From: Haloplanus aerogenes
GTDB lineage: Archaea; Halobacteriota; Halobacteria; Halobacteriales; Haloferacaceae
DNA length: 64,000 bases
Direction: 5' to 3'
NCBI RefSeq assembly: GCF_003856835.1
Contig: NZ_CP034145.1
Coordinates: 3,286,001 to 3,350,000, forward strand
The notes beneath the pieces are model-generated. The model was not told the DNA's origin, ran no database searches, and saw only the letters and a list, made by a program, of their open reading frames with translations. The position numbers were made by a program, and so were the translations under genes. Below, one piece after another: positions 3,305 through 47,510 of the stretch (position 1 is the first letter of the stretch; each line of letters opens with the position of its first letter).

Positions 3305-5455
3305 TTAGAAGACGAGGCGTTCGAGCAGTCGGCGGGCGAGCGAGGGACGACGCGCCACCGCCGGGTAGACGGTGACGGTCGTACAGCCTGGGCTTGGAAC
3401 GACCGGCCGCCTGTCGACGAGGGGGGCCCGGAGGCGATGGTCGTCGCCGGGGCGGACGAGTACGTCCGGCGTCGGCGGCCGGCCGCCGTCGGTGCGAACC
3501 GACGCGACGCGCGCGGGGACGGCGAGCATCGCGGACAGTTCGGCCCGGTAGTCGGCCGCCGCGTCGTCGGGTGACCGGAGCGAGAGGGTGCCGTCGTTCG
3601 CGGCCGCGATGGTCTCCGCGAGCGTCACCGCACGCGACGGGTACGGACGGCCGTCGCCGGCGAGGGCGACGGTCGTGGGGCGGTCGTAGCCGACGTTGTC
3701 GACGAGGAGTACGTCACACGGGGCGTGGCGAACCACCCAGTCGACCGGGTCACCGAGCAGTCGTGACCGGAGACGGAGCGGTTCGTGTTCGGCGACGATG
3801 GCGTCGACACCGCGGTCGGCGGCGACGTTGACGATAGCGTGTTTCGTGTCGTGACTGACGACTTCGTCCGCCTCGATGGGCACGTCGACGGCTGCCGCGA
3901 GCGTCGCCATCCGCGACTCGAAGGAGCGATCCGCCGCGGACTGGACGGTCGCCCGCTCGGTCAGTGGCGCCTGATCCGGAATCTCCTCGAATCGGGTGAC
4001 GATCACGCGGCCGTCGTCGGGACGGACGAGGTCGGCTGCCAAGGAGACGAGCGAGCGTTCGCGCTCGGGGCCGACGGCCTTCGTCAGCGCGACGAGGACC
4101 GCGTGCGTGTCGTCCGCCGCCGCCGACTCGACGTCCGTGAGTGCGTTCCGACCCACCTGTCGTCGAATGGCCTCCGTCGCGACGCCGCTCCGGCGCACCC
4201 GCGGCCGGACGTAGAGGAAGTACCAGACGACGCTCCCGGCGGTGATGGCGACGGCTCCGCCGAGGGCGACGGGACCCATCTGGAAGAGCAGGACGAGACC
4301 GGAGACGACACCGAACGCCTGCACCCACGGGTATAGCGGCGCCGTGAACGCGGGATCGTAGTCCGTGTCCCCCTGGCGGAAGGCGACGAGCGCGACGTTG
4401 ATCAGGACGAACACCATGATCTGGAAGGCGCTGGCCAGTTTCGCGATGTCGAGAATCGGAACGAACGCGATGAGCGCTAGCAACACGGCGCCGGTGAGCG
4501 TAATCGCGGTCGTGGGCGTCCCGAAGCGGTTACTGATGGCCGAGAGCGACGGCGGTACCAGCCGGTCCCGACTCATCGCGAAGGGGTAGCGCGACGAGGA
4601 GAGGATGCCCGCGTTGGCGGTCGAGACCAGCGCGAGAATGGCCGCGAGGATGACGACGATGACGCCGACGCGCCCGACCGTCGTCTCGGCAGCGACGGCG
4701 ACCGGCGTCAACGAGCCGGCGACGCTGCCCGGCTCGGTGATGCCGACGAGCACGGCGACGACGGCCACGTACAGGACGGTCGTGAACGCGAGCGACCCGA
4801 GGATGCCGAGCGGGATGTTCCGGCCCGGGTTCTCGATTTCCTCCGCGACGCTCGCCACCTTGGTGACGCCGGCGTAGGAGACGAACACCAGTCCCGTGGC
4901 GGCGAGGAGGCCGCCGATGCCCGCGTCGAAGAAGCCGGCGTAGTTGCCGGACTGGACCTGTGGCGCGCTCCCGGCGGCGAACCAGCCCAGCGCGAGCAGC
5001 ATGACGACGACGATAGCGAGTTGGAGTCGCCCCGTCTGTTTCGCGCCCACGAGGTTCACGAGGACGAGAACCGCCGCGAGCGTGAGCGCCACCGGCTTGA
5101 GCGGCAGGTCGAACAGCAAGAGCAGGTACGGGACACCCCCGACAAGAGCGAGTGCGCCTTTGAACGAGAGGGAGAACCACGTCCCGACGCCGGCGACGGT
5201 GCCGAGGAGCGGTCCCATGCCGCGCTCGATGTAGATGTAGGTGCCGCCGGCCTCGGGCATGGCGGTCGCCAGTTCGGATTTGGAGAGCGCGGCGGGAATC
5301 ACGAGCAGTCCGGCGACGAGATACGCGAGAACGACGGCAGGACCCGCGATTTCGAGAGCGAGCGCCGGCAGGATGAAGATGCCACTCCCGATCATGGCGC
5401 CGATACTGATAGCGAGGACGGAGGGCAGGCCGAGGTCGCGTTGCAGCTCCTTCAT
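3305..5455 (-). CDS. APC-family amino acid permease with C-terminal UspA-like domains
   Basis: A 716-residue inner-membrane transporter. Residues 1-430 hold about 12 hydrophobic segments and the APC signature near the N-terminus (LAISIGAMIGSGIFILPALA). Residues 445-590 form a cytosolic universal-stress-protein-like domain (HAVLVALT start, then VDAIVAEHEP and PCDVLLVDN). A more degenerate second copy follows to the end. Such APC-UspA fusions are common in haloarchaea; the Usp part probably senses nucleotide or stress state. The start overlaps the stop of the TrkA-N gene by four bases (ATGA), so both belong to one operon. The divergent Lrp-type regulator at 6103 suggests amino acids as substrate and ligand. 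The exact substrate cannot be read from the sequence. Confidence 0.9.
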   Translation of the reverse strand: MKELQRDLGLPSVLAISIGAMIGSGIFILPALALEIAGPAVVLAYLVAGLLVIPAALSKSELATAMPEAGGTYIYIERGMGPLLGTVAGVGTWFSLSFKGALALVGGVPYLLLLFDLPLKPVALTLAAVLVLVNLVGAKQTGRLQLAIVVVMLLALGWFAAGSAPQVQSGNYAGFFDAGIGGLLAATGLVFVSYAGVTKVASVAEEIENPGRNIPLGILGSLAFTTVLYVAVVAVLVGITEPGSVAGSLTPVAVAAETTVGRVGVIVVILAAILALVSTANAGILSSSRYPFAMSRDRLVPPSLSAISNRFGTPTTAITLTGAVLLALIAFVPILDIAKLASAFQIMVFVLINVALVAFRQGDTDYDPAFTAPLYPWVQAFGVVSGLVLLFQMGPVALGGAVAITAGSVVWYFLYVRPRVRRSGVATEAIRRQVGRNALTDVESAAADDTHAVLVALTKAVGPERERSLVSLAADLVRPDDGRVIVTRFEEIPDQAPLTERATVQSAADRSFESRMATLAAAVDVPIEADEVVSHDTKHAIVNVAADRGVDAIVAEHEPLRLRSRLLGDPVDWVVRHAPCDVLLVDNVGYDRPTTVALAGDGRPYPSRAVTLAETIAAANDGTLSLRSPDDAAADYRAELSAMLAVPARVASVRTDGGRPPTPDVLVRPGDDHRLRAPLVDRRPVVPSPGCTTVTVYPAVARRPSLARRLLERLVF

Positions 5456-7973: not shown

Positions 7974-10249
7974 CAGCCACCACCCCGTCCCCGTTTCGCA
8001 CGCTGCCGACGGCGGAGATACTGGAACGTCACGCTCAGGCCGAGGCCGTAGGCCCAGTGCGCGACGACGACGAACCCGACGTAGCCGATCAGCGCCAGAC
8101 CGGCCTGCCCGGTGTAGAAGGCGACGACGAACCCGGTCGAGATGAGCGTGGCGAACACCAGCCCCGTCTCGAACAGCAGTCGACCGGGCAGGTACTCCTG
8201 AAAGGCGAGGAAGACGAGCGGCCAGGTGACCGTCCCGCCGATCAGGAACAAGAGCGTCCCGAGGAGCGGACTGGCCGGCAAGCCGACGAGTTCGGCGATT
8301 TCACCGAACGACGCCGGATCGAGGACGCCGATCAGGATGGCGGTGCCCAGCCCACCGCTCATCAGGACGGTGCCGACGAAGCCGCCGACGGCCGCCATCC
8401 ACGCGTTGCGCGAGACGGTCTGGGCGACGGTGCCGACGCCACCCAGCAGGCCGGAAGGTTCGCCCTCGGGGTCGTAGGCGGGCCGAACCGTCTCCGGTTC
8501 CGCGGGCGTCACGTCGTACTTCTCGACCATGCGGCCCTCGAACCACTGCCACTCGCGCGTGAACTGCCCGGTCGCCTTGAGATTCCACGGGTCCGTCGTC
8601 CGCACGGGGTCGCCCTGCCAGTACGACGCCACCATGTTGTAGAGCCACAGGAGCGCCGCCAGCCCGATGACGTAGGCGCCGACGGTCGCAATCTGGCTGG
8701 CGAACTGGTACTCCGGCGGGTAGACCGCCTGCCGGCGCGGCAGGCCGAGGCCACCGATGATCAGCAGCGTGGTGAACGTCACCGTCGAGCCGAAGATCAG
8801 GAGGACGGACTGGAACTGCGCCAACCGGCGGTCGTACCACCGCCCCGTCAGCAGGGGGTACCAGTAGTAGCTCGCGGCGATCATCATGAAGGGGATGATG
8901 CCGACGACGATGAGGTGGAAGTGGCCGACGACGTAGTAGGTACCGTGATAGAGGATATCGACGGGGATGACGGCCAGAAAGACGCCGGTCACGCCGCCGA
9001 CGATGAACGTCCCGATGCTCCCGGCCGCGAGGATCAGGGGGGCTGTCGTCCGAATGTCGCCGTCCCACATCGTCGTCAGCCAGTTGAACACCTTGATCGC
9101 GCTGGGAATGGCGATGACGATGGAGTTGGCCATGAAGGACGCCCGGATGCCGGGGTCTATCCCCGTCGTGAACATGTGGTGGGCCCAGACGGCGAAGGAG
9201 AGGATGCCGAGGCCGAGCGTCGAGTAGACGATGAACTTGTAGCCGAACAGCCGTCTGCCGACGAACTTCGGGAGGATCGTACTCAACAGTCCCGTCGCCG
9301 GGAGAAAGAGGATGTAGACTTCGGGGTGGCCCCAGAACCAGAACAGGTGTTGCCACAGGATCGGTCCCCCACCCTCGACGGCGAAGAACGTCGTCCCGAA
9401 GTTCCGGTCCAGCAGGAGCATCAGGATGGCGCTTCCGAGGAGGGGAAAGGCAAAGAGCACCAGCCCGCTGGTCACGAGCATGTTCCACGAGAAGATGTCG
9501 AGATTCGCCCACGTCACGTCCTCCGCCCGTTCGTAGACGATGGTGACGATGAAGTTGATCGCCCCGAGAGTCGTGGCGACGCCGGAGAGGTGGAGCCCGA
9601 TCAAGAGGAGGTCGATCTGTGGATTCACCGACTGGACGGATAGGGGCGCATAGAGCGTCCACCCGACGCTCACCTCGCGGAGCGTCAGGAAGAAGCGAAT
9701 CGTCTCCTGTGGAAACACGGGGCTGAGGAGTTGGCCGCCGACCTGGACGAACAGGCCGGCACGAGCGAGCAGGAGCGCCGGCGGTAGGAGCCAGAAGCCG
9801 AGGGCGTTCACCCGCGGGAACGCCATGTCGTCCGCGCCGAGGAGGAGCGGAAGGAAGTAGTTCCCGACGCCGTAGAAGACGGGCAGGACGAAGAAGATCA
9901 GCATCGTGATCCCGTGGGTGGTAAAGAGCGCGTTGTACGTCTCGGGCGACCAGATGTCGGTGGGGGGCGTCAGCAGTTCCGTCCGGAGCATCATCGCGTC
10001 GACGCCGCCCCACAGCCCCGCGACGGTGCCGAAGACGATGTAGAGGATGCCGACCTCCCGGTGGTCGGTCGTCGTCAGCCAGCGCGCGAGTTGTCGCCGG
10101 AGGTGGTCCAACTCGAACCGGAGGCGCTCGCGGGTCGGATAGCCGCCGTCGCTCTGGGGGCCGGCGGCGCGACGTAGCCGGACCCATAGCAGGAGACAGG
10201 AGACGGCGAGCAGGCCGAGCGCGCTTGCCTCGACCAGTGCCCGATTCAT
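7973..10249 (-). CDS. coxA: Haem-copper oxidase subunit I with C-terminal membrane extension
   Basis: About 758 residues from the ATG at 10249, chosen because MNRALVEASALGLLAVSCLLLWVRL starts with a membrane helix; an in-frame ATG at 10330 would add 27 residues. Catalytic features are complete. HPEVY near residue 308 carries the CuB His, the cross-linked Tyr and the D-channel Glu of A1-type oxidases. AHHMFTTG near 356 supplies two further CuB ligands, and HFHLI near 442 supplies the haem ligands. After about residue 580 an extra region adds four to five hydrophobic segments (from VGGFVGTVLMSGGLGTAIL), as in other haloarchaeal subunit I proteins. It reduces O2 to water at the membrane. Divergent from subunit II. 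Confidence 0.93.
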   Translation of the reverse strand: MNRALVEASALGLLAVSCLLLWVRLRRAAGPQSDGGYPTRERLRFELDHLRRQLARWLTTTDHREVGILYIVFGTVAGLWGGVDAMMLRTELLTPPTDIWSPETYNALFTTHGITMLIFFVLPVFYGVGNYFLPLLLGADDMAFPRVNALGFWLLPPALLLARAGLFVQVGGQLLSPVFPQETIRFFLTLREVSVGWTLYAPLSVQSVNPQIDLLLIGLHLSGVATTLGAINFIVTIVYERAEDVTWANLDIFSWNMLVTSGLVLFAFPLLGSAILMLLLDRNFGTTFFAVEGGGPILWQHLFWFWGHPEVYILFLPATGLLSTILPKFVGRRLFGYKFIVYSTLGLGILSFAVWAHHMFTTGIDPGIRASFMANSIVIAIPSAIKVFNWLTTMWDGDIRTTAPLILAAGSIGTFIVGGVTGVFLAVIPVDILYHGTYYVVGHFHLIVVGIIPFMMIAASYYWYPLLTGRWYDRRLAQFQSVLLIFGSTVTFTTLLIIGGLGLPRRQAVYPPEYQFASQIATVGAYVIGLAALLWLYNMVASYWQGDPVRTTDPWNLKATGQFTREWQWFEGRMVEKYDVTPAEPETVRPAYDPEGEPSGLLGGVGTVAQTVSRNAWMAAVGGFVGTVLMSGGLGTAILIGVLDPASFGEIAELVGLPASPLLGTLLFLIGGTVTWPLVFLAFQEYLPGRLLFETGLVFATLISTGFVVAFYTGQAGLALIGYVGFVVVAHWAYGLGLSVTFQYLRRRQRAKRGRGGG

Positions 10250-30011: not shown

Positions 30012-31456
30012 CAGCGCCCCCCTCCCCGGTTGCCGGAGTTGCCGGACGAGCCGTCGGAGCCGCCGTCACTGCCCGAATTACCGCCACCGGAATTACCGGA
30101 GTTGCCACCCGAATTGCTGCCACCCGAGTCGTCGCTGTCCGAACTTCCCGCGTCGTCCGAGCCACCGGCGTTATCCGAGTTTCCCGCGTCGTCCGAGCCA
30201 CCGGCGTTGTCGGAGTTCCCCGCATCACCACCGTTCGAACCACCGGCGTTATCCGAGTTTCCCGCGTCGTCCGAACCACCGGCGTTGTCGGAGTTCCCCG
30301 CATCACCACCGTTCGAACCACCGGCGTTATCCGAGTTTCCCGCGTCGTCCGAACCACCGGCGTTATCCGAGTTTCCCGCGTCGTCCGAACCACCGGCGTT
30401 GTCGGAGTTCCCCGCATCGCCGCCGTTCGAACCACCGGCGTTATCCGAGTTTCCCGCGTCGTTGCCGTCGGAATTGCCTGCGCTGGCATCGTCAGAGCGG
30501 CCGTCGTTTTCCGAGTTTCCGGCTTCGCCCGAGTTGCCCGGATCGTCCTTACCGTTGTCGTTACCGCTGCCCGGTTTCTCCGACGGACCGGCGGTAGTCG
30601 AGCGATTGCCGGCCGCATTGCCGTTACCGTTCCCGGCCTGCTCCGGTGGGCCGGTGTCCGCGGCGTTGTCGCGACCGTTTCCGGTCTGTTCCTCGTCTTC
30701 CTCGTCTTCCTCGTCCTCGTCGTCACCCTGTGCCGGCTCCGGCAGTTCGGCCGGACCGCGCTCGGGGTCGAGCTCACGGCTTCGGTCGTCGCCGGCGATC
30801 TGTCGTGCGATCTCCGCGACTTCCGGACCGCGGAGTTCGTCGGCGTCCTGCCGCAGTCGGTCGAGTTCCTCCCGGTTCACGCCACGGGATTCGAGCGCGG
30901 CGTCGGGGAGGTCACGGGTAACCCGCTCGCTCGATTCGAGCTGGGTCTGGACCGCCCCAATCTGGGCGGCCGTGACTGCCATCCGGGCCCGATACTCGCC
31001 GGGCGAAATCTCGCCCGACTGGCGGGCCTCGTGGAGTTCGGACTGTCGTTCGCGGAGGGTCTCGAGCCGCTCACGGACCGTGTTGAGTTCCGTCGCGACC
31101 ACACCCGCTTTCGACGCGTTCGACTCGGCCCGAGCGACCCGCGTCGCCAGCGTCCGTTCCTCGAGTTCGCCGTCGATTTCGGCGCCCTGCACGCCGACGA
31201 CGCCCGCGAGTTGTTGCCCCGGAGCGATCGAGGCGTTCTCGTCTCCCTCCGACCCGGAGGCGGTGGCTGTGGCGGTCGCGGTGCCGTTCGCCGTCGTCTG
31301 CTGTGCCACCCGATCCTGCGCCCCGTCGCCCACTTCCGCTGTCGCCGTCGCCGTCGTCGTCGGCTGCCCCAGAGCCGACACCGGGACTGCCACCACGCTA
31401 ACGGTGACAGCGACGACGAGCGCGAACACGACGACATCCGGAACGTCTCGGCTCAT
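30011..31456 (-). CDS. Secreted protein with coiled-coil core and Gly/Asn/Ser/Asp repeat tail
   Basis: A 481-residue protein from ATG 31456 (MSRDVPDVVVFALVVAVTV); a GTG directly before it could add one residue. A TATA-like gtttattgg precedes it by about 30 bases. Residues 1-30 are a signal peptide. A Thr/Ala-rich low-complexity stretch follows, then a helical coiled-coil-prone region at about 110-225 (ELNTVRERLETLRERQSELHEA... RLRQDADEL). Next is an acidic Asp/Glu run (about 245-258), and from about 260 to the end a Gly-Asn-Ser-Asp low-complexity tail. It is probably surface-exposed or cell-wall associated. I do not recognise a family. It is the first gene of a two-gene unit with the HalX regulator. 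Confidence 0.85.
   Translation of the reverse strand: MSRDVPDVVVFALVVAVTVSVVAVPVSALGQPTTTATATAEVGDGAQDRVAQQTTANGTATATATASGSEGDENASIAPGQQLAGVVGVQGAEIDGELEERTLATRVARAESNASKAGVVATELNTVRERLETLRERQSELHEARQSGEISPGEYRARMAVTAAQIGAVQTQLESSERVTRDLPDAALESRGVNREELDRLRQDADELRGPEVAEIARQIAGDDRSRELDPERGPAELPEPAQGDDEDEEDEEDEEQTGNGRDNAADTGPPEQAGNGNGNAAGNRSTTAGPSEKPGSGNDNGKDDPGNSGEAGNSENDGRSDDASAGNSDGNDAGNSDNAGGSNGGDAGNSDNAGGSDDAGNSDNAGGSDDAGNSDNAGGSNGGDAGNSDNAGGSDDAGNSDNAGGSNGGDAGNSDNAGGSDDAGNSDNAGGSDDAGSSDSDDSGGSNSGGNSGNSGGGNSGSDGGSDGSSGNSGNRGGGR
30142..30470 (-). repeat. In-frame tandem repeats coding GNSDNAGGSDDA and GNSDNAGGSNGGDA
   Basis: Read leftward, about eight repeats of 36 or 42 bases encode two forms of one peptide, GNSDNAGGSDDA (12 residues) and GNSDNAGGSNGGDA (14 residues). 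They occur in the order long, short, short, long, short, long, short, short. The copies are nearly identical in DNA, so they expanded recently or are kept uniform by recombination. All unit lengths are multiples of three, so changes in copy number keep the frame open. Confidence 0.9.
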
Positions 31457-46587: not shown

Positions 46588-47435
46588 GTGACTGACTGGC
46601 TCGAATCGGTAAAGCTGTACCGAGCGAGGCGCGGTTTCACCGGACGCGACCGCAGGGAGCGTCCGGGTGTTTTTCCCCAAGTTTTTGCAAGGAGCGGTTC
46701 CCGCAGCGAGCGAAGCGAGCGAGGAAACCCGACGCAGCAAAAAGTGGGAGTATGCCGCCTCCCCGATTTGAACCGCGTCAGACGGTCCGGGGTGCTCGCT
46801 TCGCTGCGCTCCCGGGCTGCGACTGACTGGCTCAAATCGAGTCGGGAGCAGTTTCACTGCTCACGAACTCGGTCGCTTCGCTCCCTCGTCGATTCGCAGG
46901 AAAATGCCGCCTCCCCGATTTGAACTTCCGAAAGACTCGCTAGCGCTCGTCTTTCGACTTCCCGCTCACTACGTTCACGGGAAGGGGGACAGCTCGATCT
47001 TCAGTCGAGATGTGTCGAACCCGTGTACCGCGCCGAGCGAAGCGAGGCGCGGTTTCACTGCTGGCGAACGCAGTGAGTCAGCAGGGGTTTTTCCCCAAGT
47101 TTTTGCAAGGAGTGGTTCCCGCAGCGAACGGAGTGAGCGAGGAAACCCGACGCAGCAAAAAGTGGGAGTATGCCGCCTCCCCGATTTGAACTTCCGAAAG
47201 ACTCGCTAGCGCTCGTCTTTCGACTTCCCGCTCACTACGTTCACGGGAAGGGGGACAGCTCGATCTTCAGTCGAGATGTGTCGAACCCGTGTACCGCGCC
47301 GAGCGAAGCGAGGCGCGGTTTCACTGCTGGCGAACGCAGTGAGTCAGCAGGGGTTTTTCCCCAAGTTTTTGCAAGGAGTGGTTCCCGCAGCGAACGGAGT
47401 GAGCGAGGAAACCCGACGCAGCAAAAAGTGGGAGT
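46588..47435. repeat. tRNA-Phe-associated repeat array (two identical 266-bp units plus a diverged third)
   Basis: Units 46904-47169 and 47170-47435 read the same base for base and are followed directly by the tRNA-Phe gene. Each begins with the 22-base atgccgcctccccgatttgaac, identical to the tRNA 3' end on this strand. Then come a 58-base insert (46926-46983; 47192-47249), the tRNA variable and anticodon arm (46984-47009; 47250-47275), and a run of hairpin-rich sequence ending gcaaaaagtgggagt. The diverged third part carries the same 22-base core at 46752-46773 and the same flank before it (about 46615-46751). It also has a second repeated piece, gactgactggctc, near 46588 and 46822. No protein gene is credible in this 0.9-kb gap. 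Confidence 0.9.
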
Positions 47436-47436
47436 A

Positions 47437-47510
47437 TGCCGCCTCCCCGATTTGAACGGGGGACAGCTCGATCTTCAGTCGAGTGCTCTCCCAGTCTGAG
47501 CTAAGGCGGC
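47437..47510 (-). tRNA. tRNA-Phe (GAA)
   Basis: Read leftward the 74 bases fold into a full cloverleaf: acceptor GCCGCCU/AGGCGGC, D-arm GCUC/GAGC, anticodon arm CUCGA-CUGAAGA-UCGAG with anticodon GAA (47474-47476), variable CUGUC, T-arm CCCCG-UUCAAAU-CGGGG, discriminator A. CCA is not encoded. No intron. A TATA-like ccttttggc about 30 bases before the 5' end (near 47535-47543) fits a promoter. The 3' end forms the core of the repeat array to its left. Confidence 0.96.

Follow-up and report, generated by a model that had tools for sequence, protein, structure and literature searches.

Tail-bounded hairpin cassettes in tandem at the tRNA-Phe gene of Haloplanus aerogenes and behind tRNA genes throughout the haloarchaeal class

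The window analysed here, a stretch of 64,000 nucleotides from the genome of Haloplanus aerogenes (NZ_CP034145.1, positions 3,286,001 to 3,350,000), contains a gene for tRNA-Phe(GAA) that is followed by an array of short units (Table 1). As the tRNA gene lies on the minus strand, the array is situated on its 3' side, and in the direction of the tRNA the order is tRNA-Phe, unit A1, unit A2, unit B and a flank designated F'. The sequence GTTCAAATCGGGGAGGCGGCA (nt 53-73 of the tRNA) occurs four times without any mismatch on the minus strand of the window (at 47437, 47171, 46905 and 46753; shuffles expect 0.00). Each of the three units ends in such an exact tail copy, and with the tail of the tRNA itself this makes four exact cores. 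An earlier note on this DNA had described two 266-bp units as apparently identical and had taken this to mean a very recent duplication, a conversion or an assembly effect. The identity is borne out by base identity between 46904-47169 (A2) and 47170-47435 (A1) and by a 266-bp period that is exact over 46904-47457; recent recombination is supported, although the number of units may be influenced by assembly. The same note took the array to be built from pieces of tRNA, and indeed exact 21-nt tails as well as exact 26-nt anticodon-arm copies are present in both A units. A third 22-base core (46752-46773) had been called diverged; its 21-nt tail part is exact, and it is the body of the unit that differs.

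Table 1. Features of the tRNA-Phe array (positions in the window)
Feature	Position	Strand	Details
tRNA-Phe(GAA), anchor gene	47437..47510	-	ARAGORN; Rfam RF00005, 61.3 bits
Tail/core, last 21 nt of tRNA-Phe	47437-47457	-	same gene call
Unit A1, 266 bp	47171..47436	-	body 47192-47436, exact tail copy 47171-47191
Unit A2, 266 bp, identical to A1	46905..47170	-	body 46926-47170, exact tail copy 46905-46925
Unit B, 152 bp	46753..46904	-	two hairpins (interior of hairpin 2 conserved) and an exact tail copy at 46753-46773; model R1 match 46759-46843, E 1.8e-12; RNA fold z -3.47
Inverted copy of the tRNA-Phe T-arm (CGATTTGAGC) in unit B	46830..46839	-	pairs with the unit-B tail copy
Exact 26-nt copy of tRNA-Phe, anticodon arm to T-stem	A1 47250..47275; A2 46984-47009	-	
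58-bp two-hairpin insert between T-stem and tail	A1 47192..47249; A2 46926-46983	-	at the nt 52/53 junction
Ancestral 3' flank F'	46623..46752	-	110/127 identical to the empty site of a congener

The body of unit B is unlike that of the A units and represents another cassette type, the one that is found throughout the class. The A units are atypical insofar as they carry the anticodon-arm copy and the 58-bp insert where other units have an inverted arm, and their first part consists of an F-like sequence that is 89% identical to F'. An F element (CCCACTTTTTGC ... GCAAAAACTTGGGGAAAAA) recurs behind tRNA-Phe, tRNA-Pro and tRNA-Met (window 46623-46752; L090; L124), and its hairpin arms vary between species. 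No further occurrence of the 266-bp unit was detected in the 3.5-Mb genome. Assignment to a known RNA family was rejected since a comparison of the array with 4227 Rfam families returned the tRNA itself plus one sub-threshold chance match only; for the arrays at tRNA-His, tRNA-Gln and tRNA-Gly, Rfam likewise recognized the tRNA only. The ten proteins tested around the array (40.7-50.5 kb) include neither a recombinase nor a cas gene product. Elsewhere in the window, at 30138-30462, a tandem repeat with periods of 36 bp and 78 bp is present.

The arrangement is not restricted to tRNA-Phe. In the same genome, 26 of 47 tRNA genes have a perfect repeat of their tail, 11 nt or longer, within 600 bp on the downstream side, while none of the 47 has one upstream. 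Unit B resembles sequences 3' of tRNA-Met, -Thr, -Ala, -Leu and -Tyr, and the usual layout opens with the tRNA and a T-rich start, continues with a variable hairpin 1, the local T-arm in inverted form and a conserved hairpin 2, and closes with a direct copy of the tail. The bodies of these cassettes measure about 75-245 bp and are devoid of genes. Tandem identical units are present at tRNA-His and tRNA-Leu(TAA) as well and, with other genomes included, at tRNAs for His, Leu, Lys and Gln. From 25 hairpins of the usual layout we built a covariance model, R1. It yielded 23 matches with E<1e-3 in the whole genome of H. aerogenes, each of which immediately follows a tRNA in the same orientation, a count that is not independent because R1 was trained largely on loci from this very genome; the matches at tRNA-Glu and tRNA-Cys lie outside the training set. 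Seven tyrosine recombinases are encoded in the genome.

The arms of the cassettes correspond to the tRNA behind which they reside. In a set of 97 tRNAs (47 from the own genome and 50 picked via model matches), 65 are followed by a copy of their own tail with at least 18 of 21 positions identical, the rate for tails of other tRNAs from the same genome being 0.46%. Among 72 tRNA-adjacent matches from an interior scan described below, the direct arm agrees with the local tail at 18.8 of 20 positions and with other tails at 13.3 of 20, and the local tail is strictly the best one in 65 cases. The inverted arm tracks unusual T-loops, e.g. those of tRNA-Gly(CCC), -His and -Lys, with a smaller overall edge (9.8 vs 8.7 of 12). 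Arm pairs covary, as is apparent from 100 double-change cells compared to a mean of 42 and a maximum of 56 in 500 shuffles. In all tRNA types the tail copy spans nt 52/53 to nt 73. For 99 copies, identity to the tRNA amounts to 0.91-0.99 from the discriminator to nt 53, to 0.80 at the next position and to about 0.3 beyond, whereby the inner values are inflated by the choice of good copies and the sharp edge is not. Interiors group both by tRNA and by genome, but both effects are weak and thus establish neither pure vertical descent nor pure spread within genomes. A polarity with the newest unit nearest to the tRNA was considered and rejected, as tail identity shows no steady fall with unit order.

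A gene for tRNA-Phe is found at the matching place in all 11 congeners searched. Three congeners (L040, L043 and L047) possess a single exact core and no cassette directly behind tRNA-Phe. In L042, a B-type cassette follows the tRNA and its distal core has lost bases, while most of the remaining congeners have at least one small unit, every one of which terminates in the exact core. Past the last core, the flanks of six relatives share 100-115 of 122-129 aligned positions with the empty site of L040, and the flank here shares 110 of 127; a cassette together with one tail is thus precisely gained or lost. Precise filled and precise empty sites are both present at tRNA-Phe in this genus.

Matches to R1 were obtained for 78 of 79 genomes from the haloarchaeal class, covering 42 of 42 genera with 1 to 36 copies per genome. 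In a phylum-wide sample, 25 of 26 haloarchaeal genomes gave matches and none of 122 relatives outside the class did. In the one haloarchaeon without R1 matches (G016, flanks with 47% GC), none of 30 tRNAs has a tail copy, and a relative from outside the class has one at 30 tRNAs. When the best 30 loci of the class are considered, 27 are located directly behind a tRNA. The remaining three are a unit far inside an array at tRNA-Asp, a second one that follows a tRNA which is either degraded or unrecognised, and locus L156 (G183), in which the cassette interior is opposite in orientation to tRNA-Glu and the distal tail copy is still perfect.

A second approach made no use of tRNA information. The interior motif CAGTCGCGCGCAGCG-N-GAGCACGTCTG was compared with 84,980 genomes and, among the matches listed, hit haloarchaea and one MAG labelled Bacteroidetes, which stems from a hypersaline set and is probably misbinned. 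We read 84 matches in 80 loci, 72 of which stand behind a same-strand tRNA and represent 23 isoacceptors; the other 12 either border a contig edge or have no intact tRNA next to them, and they carry tRNA-tail copies. The earlier note had named occurrence of the unit at many non-tRNA sites as the mark of an ordinary dispersed repeat. Instead, almost all copies are situated behind tRNAs, and this includes every significant match in the own genome.

Some loci feature related hairpins in other surroundings. In L375 (G104), a protein gene has a cassette-like hairpin (569-634) at its 3' end. The end of this gene, GTTCGATCCGGCGTA, looks like a T-loop; GTTCGATCCGGCGTA is repeated behind the hairpin and an inverted copy precedes it. 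Three further loci from G104 (L372, L376 and L377) contain a repeat that combines an AT-rich TATA-like stretch with a type II hairpin and lacks a tRNA tail; in L377, it is located about 245 nt behind the gene for RNase P RNA. On plasmid pPT70 of Paraburkholderia terrae (L581, 1501-1531), a non-coding stretch of 31 nt matches the type II hairpin interior with 97% identity about 1.1 kb from a site-specific integrase, and the match is also present in two further Paraburkholderia plasmids.

We propose, with roughly even confidence, that the array at tRNA-Phe consists of non-coding units, here termed tRNA-tail hairpin cassettes, which are stacked locally and for which the tail of the tRNA is the place of insertion or recombination. 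A cassette would be a short insertion unit with one or two strand-specific hairpins, bounded on either side by direct copies of nt 52/53-73, and the tRNA tail would act as the recombination site. Recombination between identical tails would then duplicate or delete whole units and may have given rise to the pair of identical 266-bp units. The inverted T-arm may have kept its ability to pair with the tail copy because the folded strand is recognised, and for the occupation of new sites the simplest reading would be insertion by an enzyme acting in trans. Mobility of the cassettes, participation of an enzyme and recognition of a folded strand are all inferred here; neither a mobilising enzyme nor a circular form or a fresh insertion was observed. 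Transfer of a cassette from one tRNA type to another is not possible by a simple integrase crossover, since this would damage the acceptor stem. Loss through recombination between tails, combined with gene conversion of interiors via the shared T-loop sequence, could account for the presence or absence of cassettes, for shared interiors and thus for much of the data without transposition. On a wider scale, it is conceivable, if doubtful, that a class-wide archaeal cassette system exists in which the inverted arm guides the unit to one particular tRNA tail and in which insertion and stacking proceed without cassette genes via a folded single strand. If this guide reading were true, one conserved hairpin would be aimed at many tRNA genes by change of the guide.

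The fold of the cassettes has also to be considered from the perspective of RNA. In 85% of 102 cassettes, the tRNA-sense strand is better folded than its complement (z -3.58 vs -2.36; mean difference in fold energy -6.1 kcal/mol), and in P1 66 G.U stand against 17 A.C. Together with the compensatory changes in the arms and the persistence of the cassettes throughout the class, this would agree with functional RNA, i.e. structured 3' extensions of tRNA transcripts that are under selection as RNA, with tail recombination altering copy number and gene conversion spreading the interiors. For unit B, the minimum free energy stands out more as RNA (z -3.47) than as DNA (z -1.94), without being decisive for either. 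However, a TATA-like motif is present in none of the 102 cassettes on either strand, so any cassette RNA, the small tRNA-like RNAs envisaged in the earlier note included, would come from read-through, and this would have to run through the T-rich stretch downstream of the tRNA. Furthermore, orthologous tRNA-Phe genes of congeners do without a cassette, just as the 30 tRNAs of the haloarchaeon with 47% GC do. We regard selection as RNA as a possible but rather unlikely origin of the pattern.

The earlier note had interpreted the cores as old att sites. This is correct insofar as the tRNA tail serves as an integration site: in the congener G011 (L049, 1154-9487), an integrated element of 8.2 kb resides at tRNA-Phe between two exact cores. 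It encodes an AAA-like ATPase (3662-4885) and a tyrosine integrase (8331-9443, minus strand), the gene for which overlaps attR with its 5' end, and thus integrative elements use the tRNA-Phe site too. Other elements are placed between tRNA and cassette. Three cassettes in G174 are parted from their tRNA and each starts with a tail fragment; upstream of one of them (L395), the DNA codes for the C-terminus of an integrase-like protein, as though the tRNA and its cassette had been pushed apart by an incoming element. It also fits this interpretation that the A unit contains a tRNA 3'-half resembling archaeal attP. As a whole answer, in which every unit would be left over from an integrated virus or plasmid that has lost its interior, the att-site reading is nevertheless unlikely. 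The cassette hairpin is absent from the attR ends of the integrase-bearing elements examined, among them that of the G011 element, where no unit-B hairpin is found, and tail identity at element ends extends over about 12-14 nt or the 3' half and not over 21-22 nt as in the cassettes. An intermediate in which element DNA separates hairpin 1 from hairpin 2 was not encountered, the hairpin is conserved class-wide with its fixed tail start at nt 52/53, and it was not detected in phage records or in the pattern scans of IMG/VR. In these scans, which led us to reject viral carriage, a type I pattern gave 12 matches and a looser type II pattern gave matches as well, none being confirmed by the model; the G011 integrase retrieved no viral contigs. 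Cassettes do occur on plasmids. The 987-kb plasmid of Natrinema thermotolerans (CP031304.1; L399, 1996-2081) carries the 3' half of tRNA-Glu with a cassette and without an intact tRNA, and a Natronorubrum plasmid carries tRNA-Val with a cassette.

As a host feature, the copies might serve as decoys or spare tails that offer integrases alternative targets or allow inserts to be deleted by tail recombination. Each copy spans what T-loop-type integrases need for rebuilding of the tRNA, elements do occur inside arrays, and for Haloquadratum deletions between 43-bp and 22-bp partial-tRNA repeats have been reported (PMC3119063). Such a function would leave the conserved hairpin interior and the inverted arm unexplained, and we consider it very unlikely. 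An assembly artefact or plain replication slippage confined to the tRNA-Phe locus, suggested by two identical units beyond the resolution of short reads, is scarcely credible given similar identical tandem units at several other tRNAs and in other genomes and single units with exact tails throughout the class.

Behind about half of the tRNA genes in H. aerogenes, and behind tRNAs in nearly all haloarchaea examined, there is an element family that is not in Rfam. If the array is indeed a stack of inserting or recombining cassettes, the tRNA 3' ends of a whole archaeal class would be subject to continual and precise recombination. The cassettes would provide a direct means of studying how one recombination site can be matched to many different tRNA genes, would bear on the question of why tRNA genes are integration hot spots and would explain many of the 'partial tRNA' repeats in haloarchaeal annotations.

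Integrative elements at the 3' ends of archaeal tRNA genes and their tyrosine integrases have been reviewed (PMC8371274). The cassettes share with them the direct duplication of the tRNA 3' end, which is present at both ends of the unit, the retention of an intact tRNA, the tandem occupation of one site and the existence of precise empty and filled sites in relatives. They differ from them by their small size (about 75-245 bp), by the lack of genes, of an integrase or of remains thereof in the bodies, with no recombinase among the ten neighbouring proteins tested, by a tail boundary fixed at nt 52/53 and by a conserved hairpin with an inverted T-arm that is matched to at least 23 isoacceptors. 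Integron arrays, which are also known from archaea (PMC9668308), resemble the arrangement described here in being anchored cassette arrays with strand asymmetry, and attC sites are imperfect hairpins with arms on either side of a recombination site. The cassette hairpin, the arms of which covary, may flank a recombination site in a similar manner. In contrast to integrons, there are no cassette genes, and the array is anchored at a tRNA gene to which the arms are matched; an integron array was rejected since the genome lacks an integron integrase (best TIGR02249 score 47.3 bits vs a cut-off of 265). The haloarchaeal PATEs, SMRs and MITEs are short, transposase-free, palindromic and polymorphic like the cassettes (PMC3119063). 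Unlike these elements, the cassettes are located almost wholly at tRNA 3' ends, their direct repeats are tRNA tails and their arms change with the target.

With CRISPR arrays, the units have in common a repeat-unit-repeat layout that extends from a fixed end, but the bodies form a conserved hairpin family rather than unique spacers, and no cas gene is present among the ten proteins tested at 40.7-50.5 kb. Elements of the IS200/IS605 type have subterminal hairpins at their ends, and a foot sequence pairs with the cleavage or target site, the known guides being about 4 nt long. This foot pairing is reminiscent of the pairing between the inverted arm of the cassettes and the tail; unlike the cassettes, IS200/IS605 elements are not known to leave a direct repeat of 21 nt. 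Rfam families, integrons, CRISPR arrays, dispersed MITE-like elements and gene-bearing integrative elements were compared with the cassettes, and for each of them one hallmark or more is missing, so that none of them fits. We found no earlier description of such cassettes in the open-licence literature and one may exist elsewhere; within that literature, an architecture in which a shared hairpin is combined with arms that follow the host tRNA appears to be undescribed.
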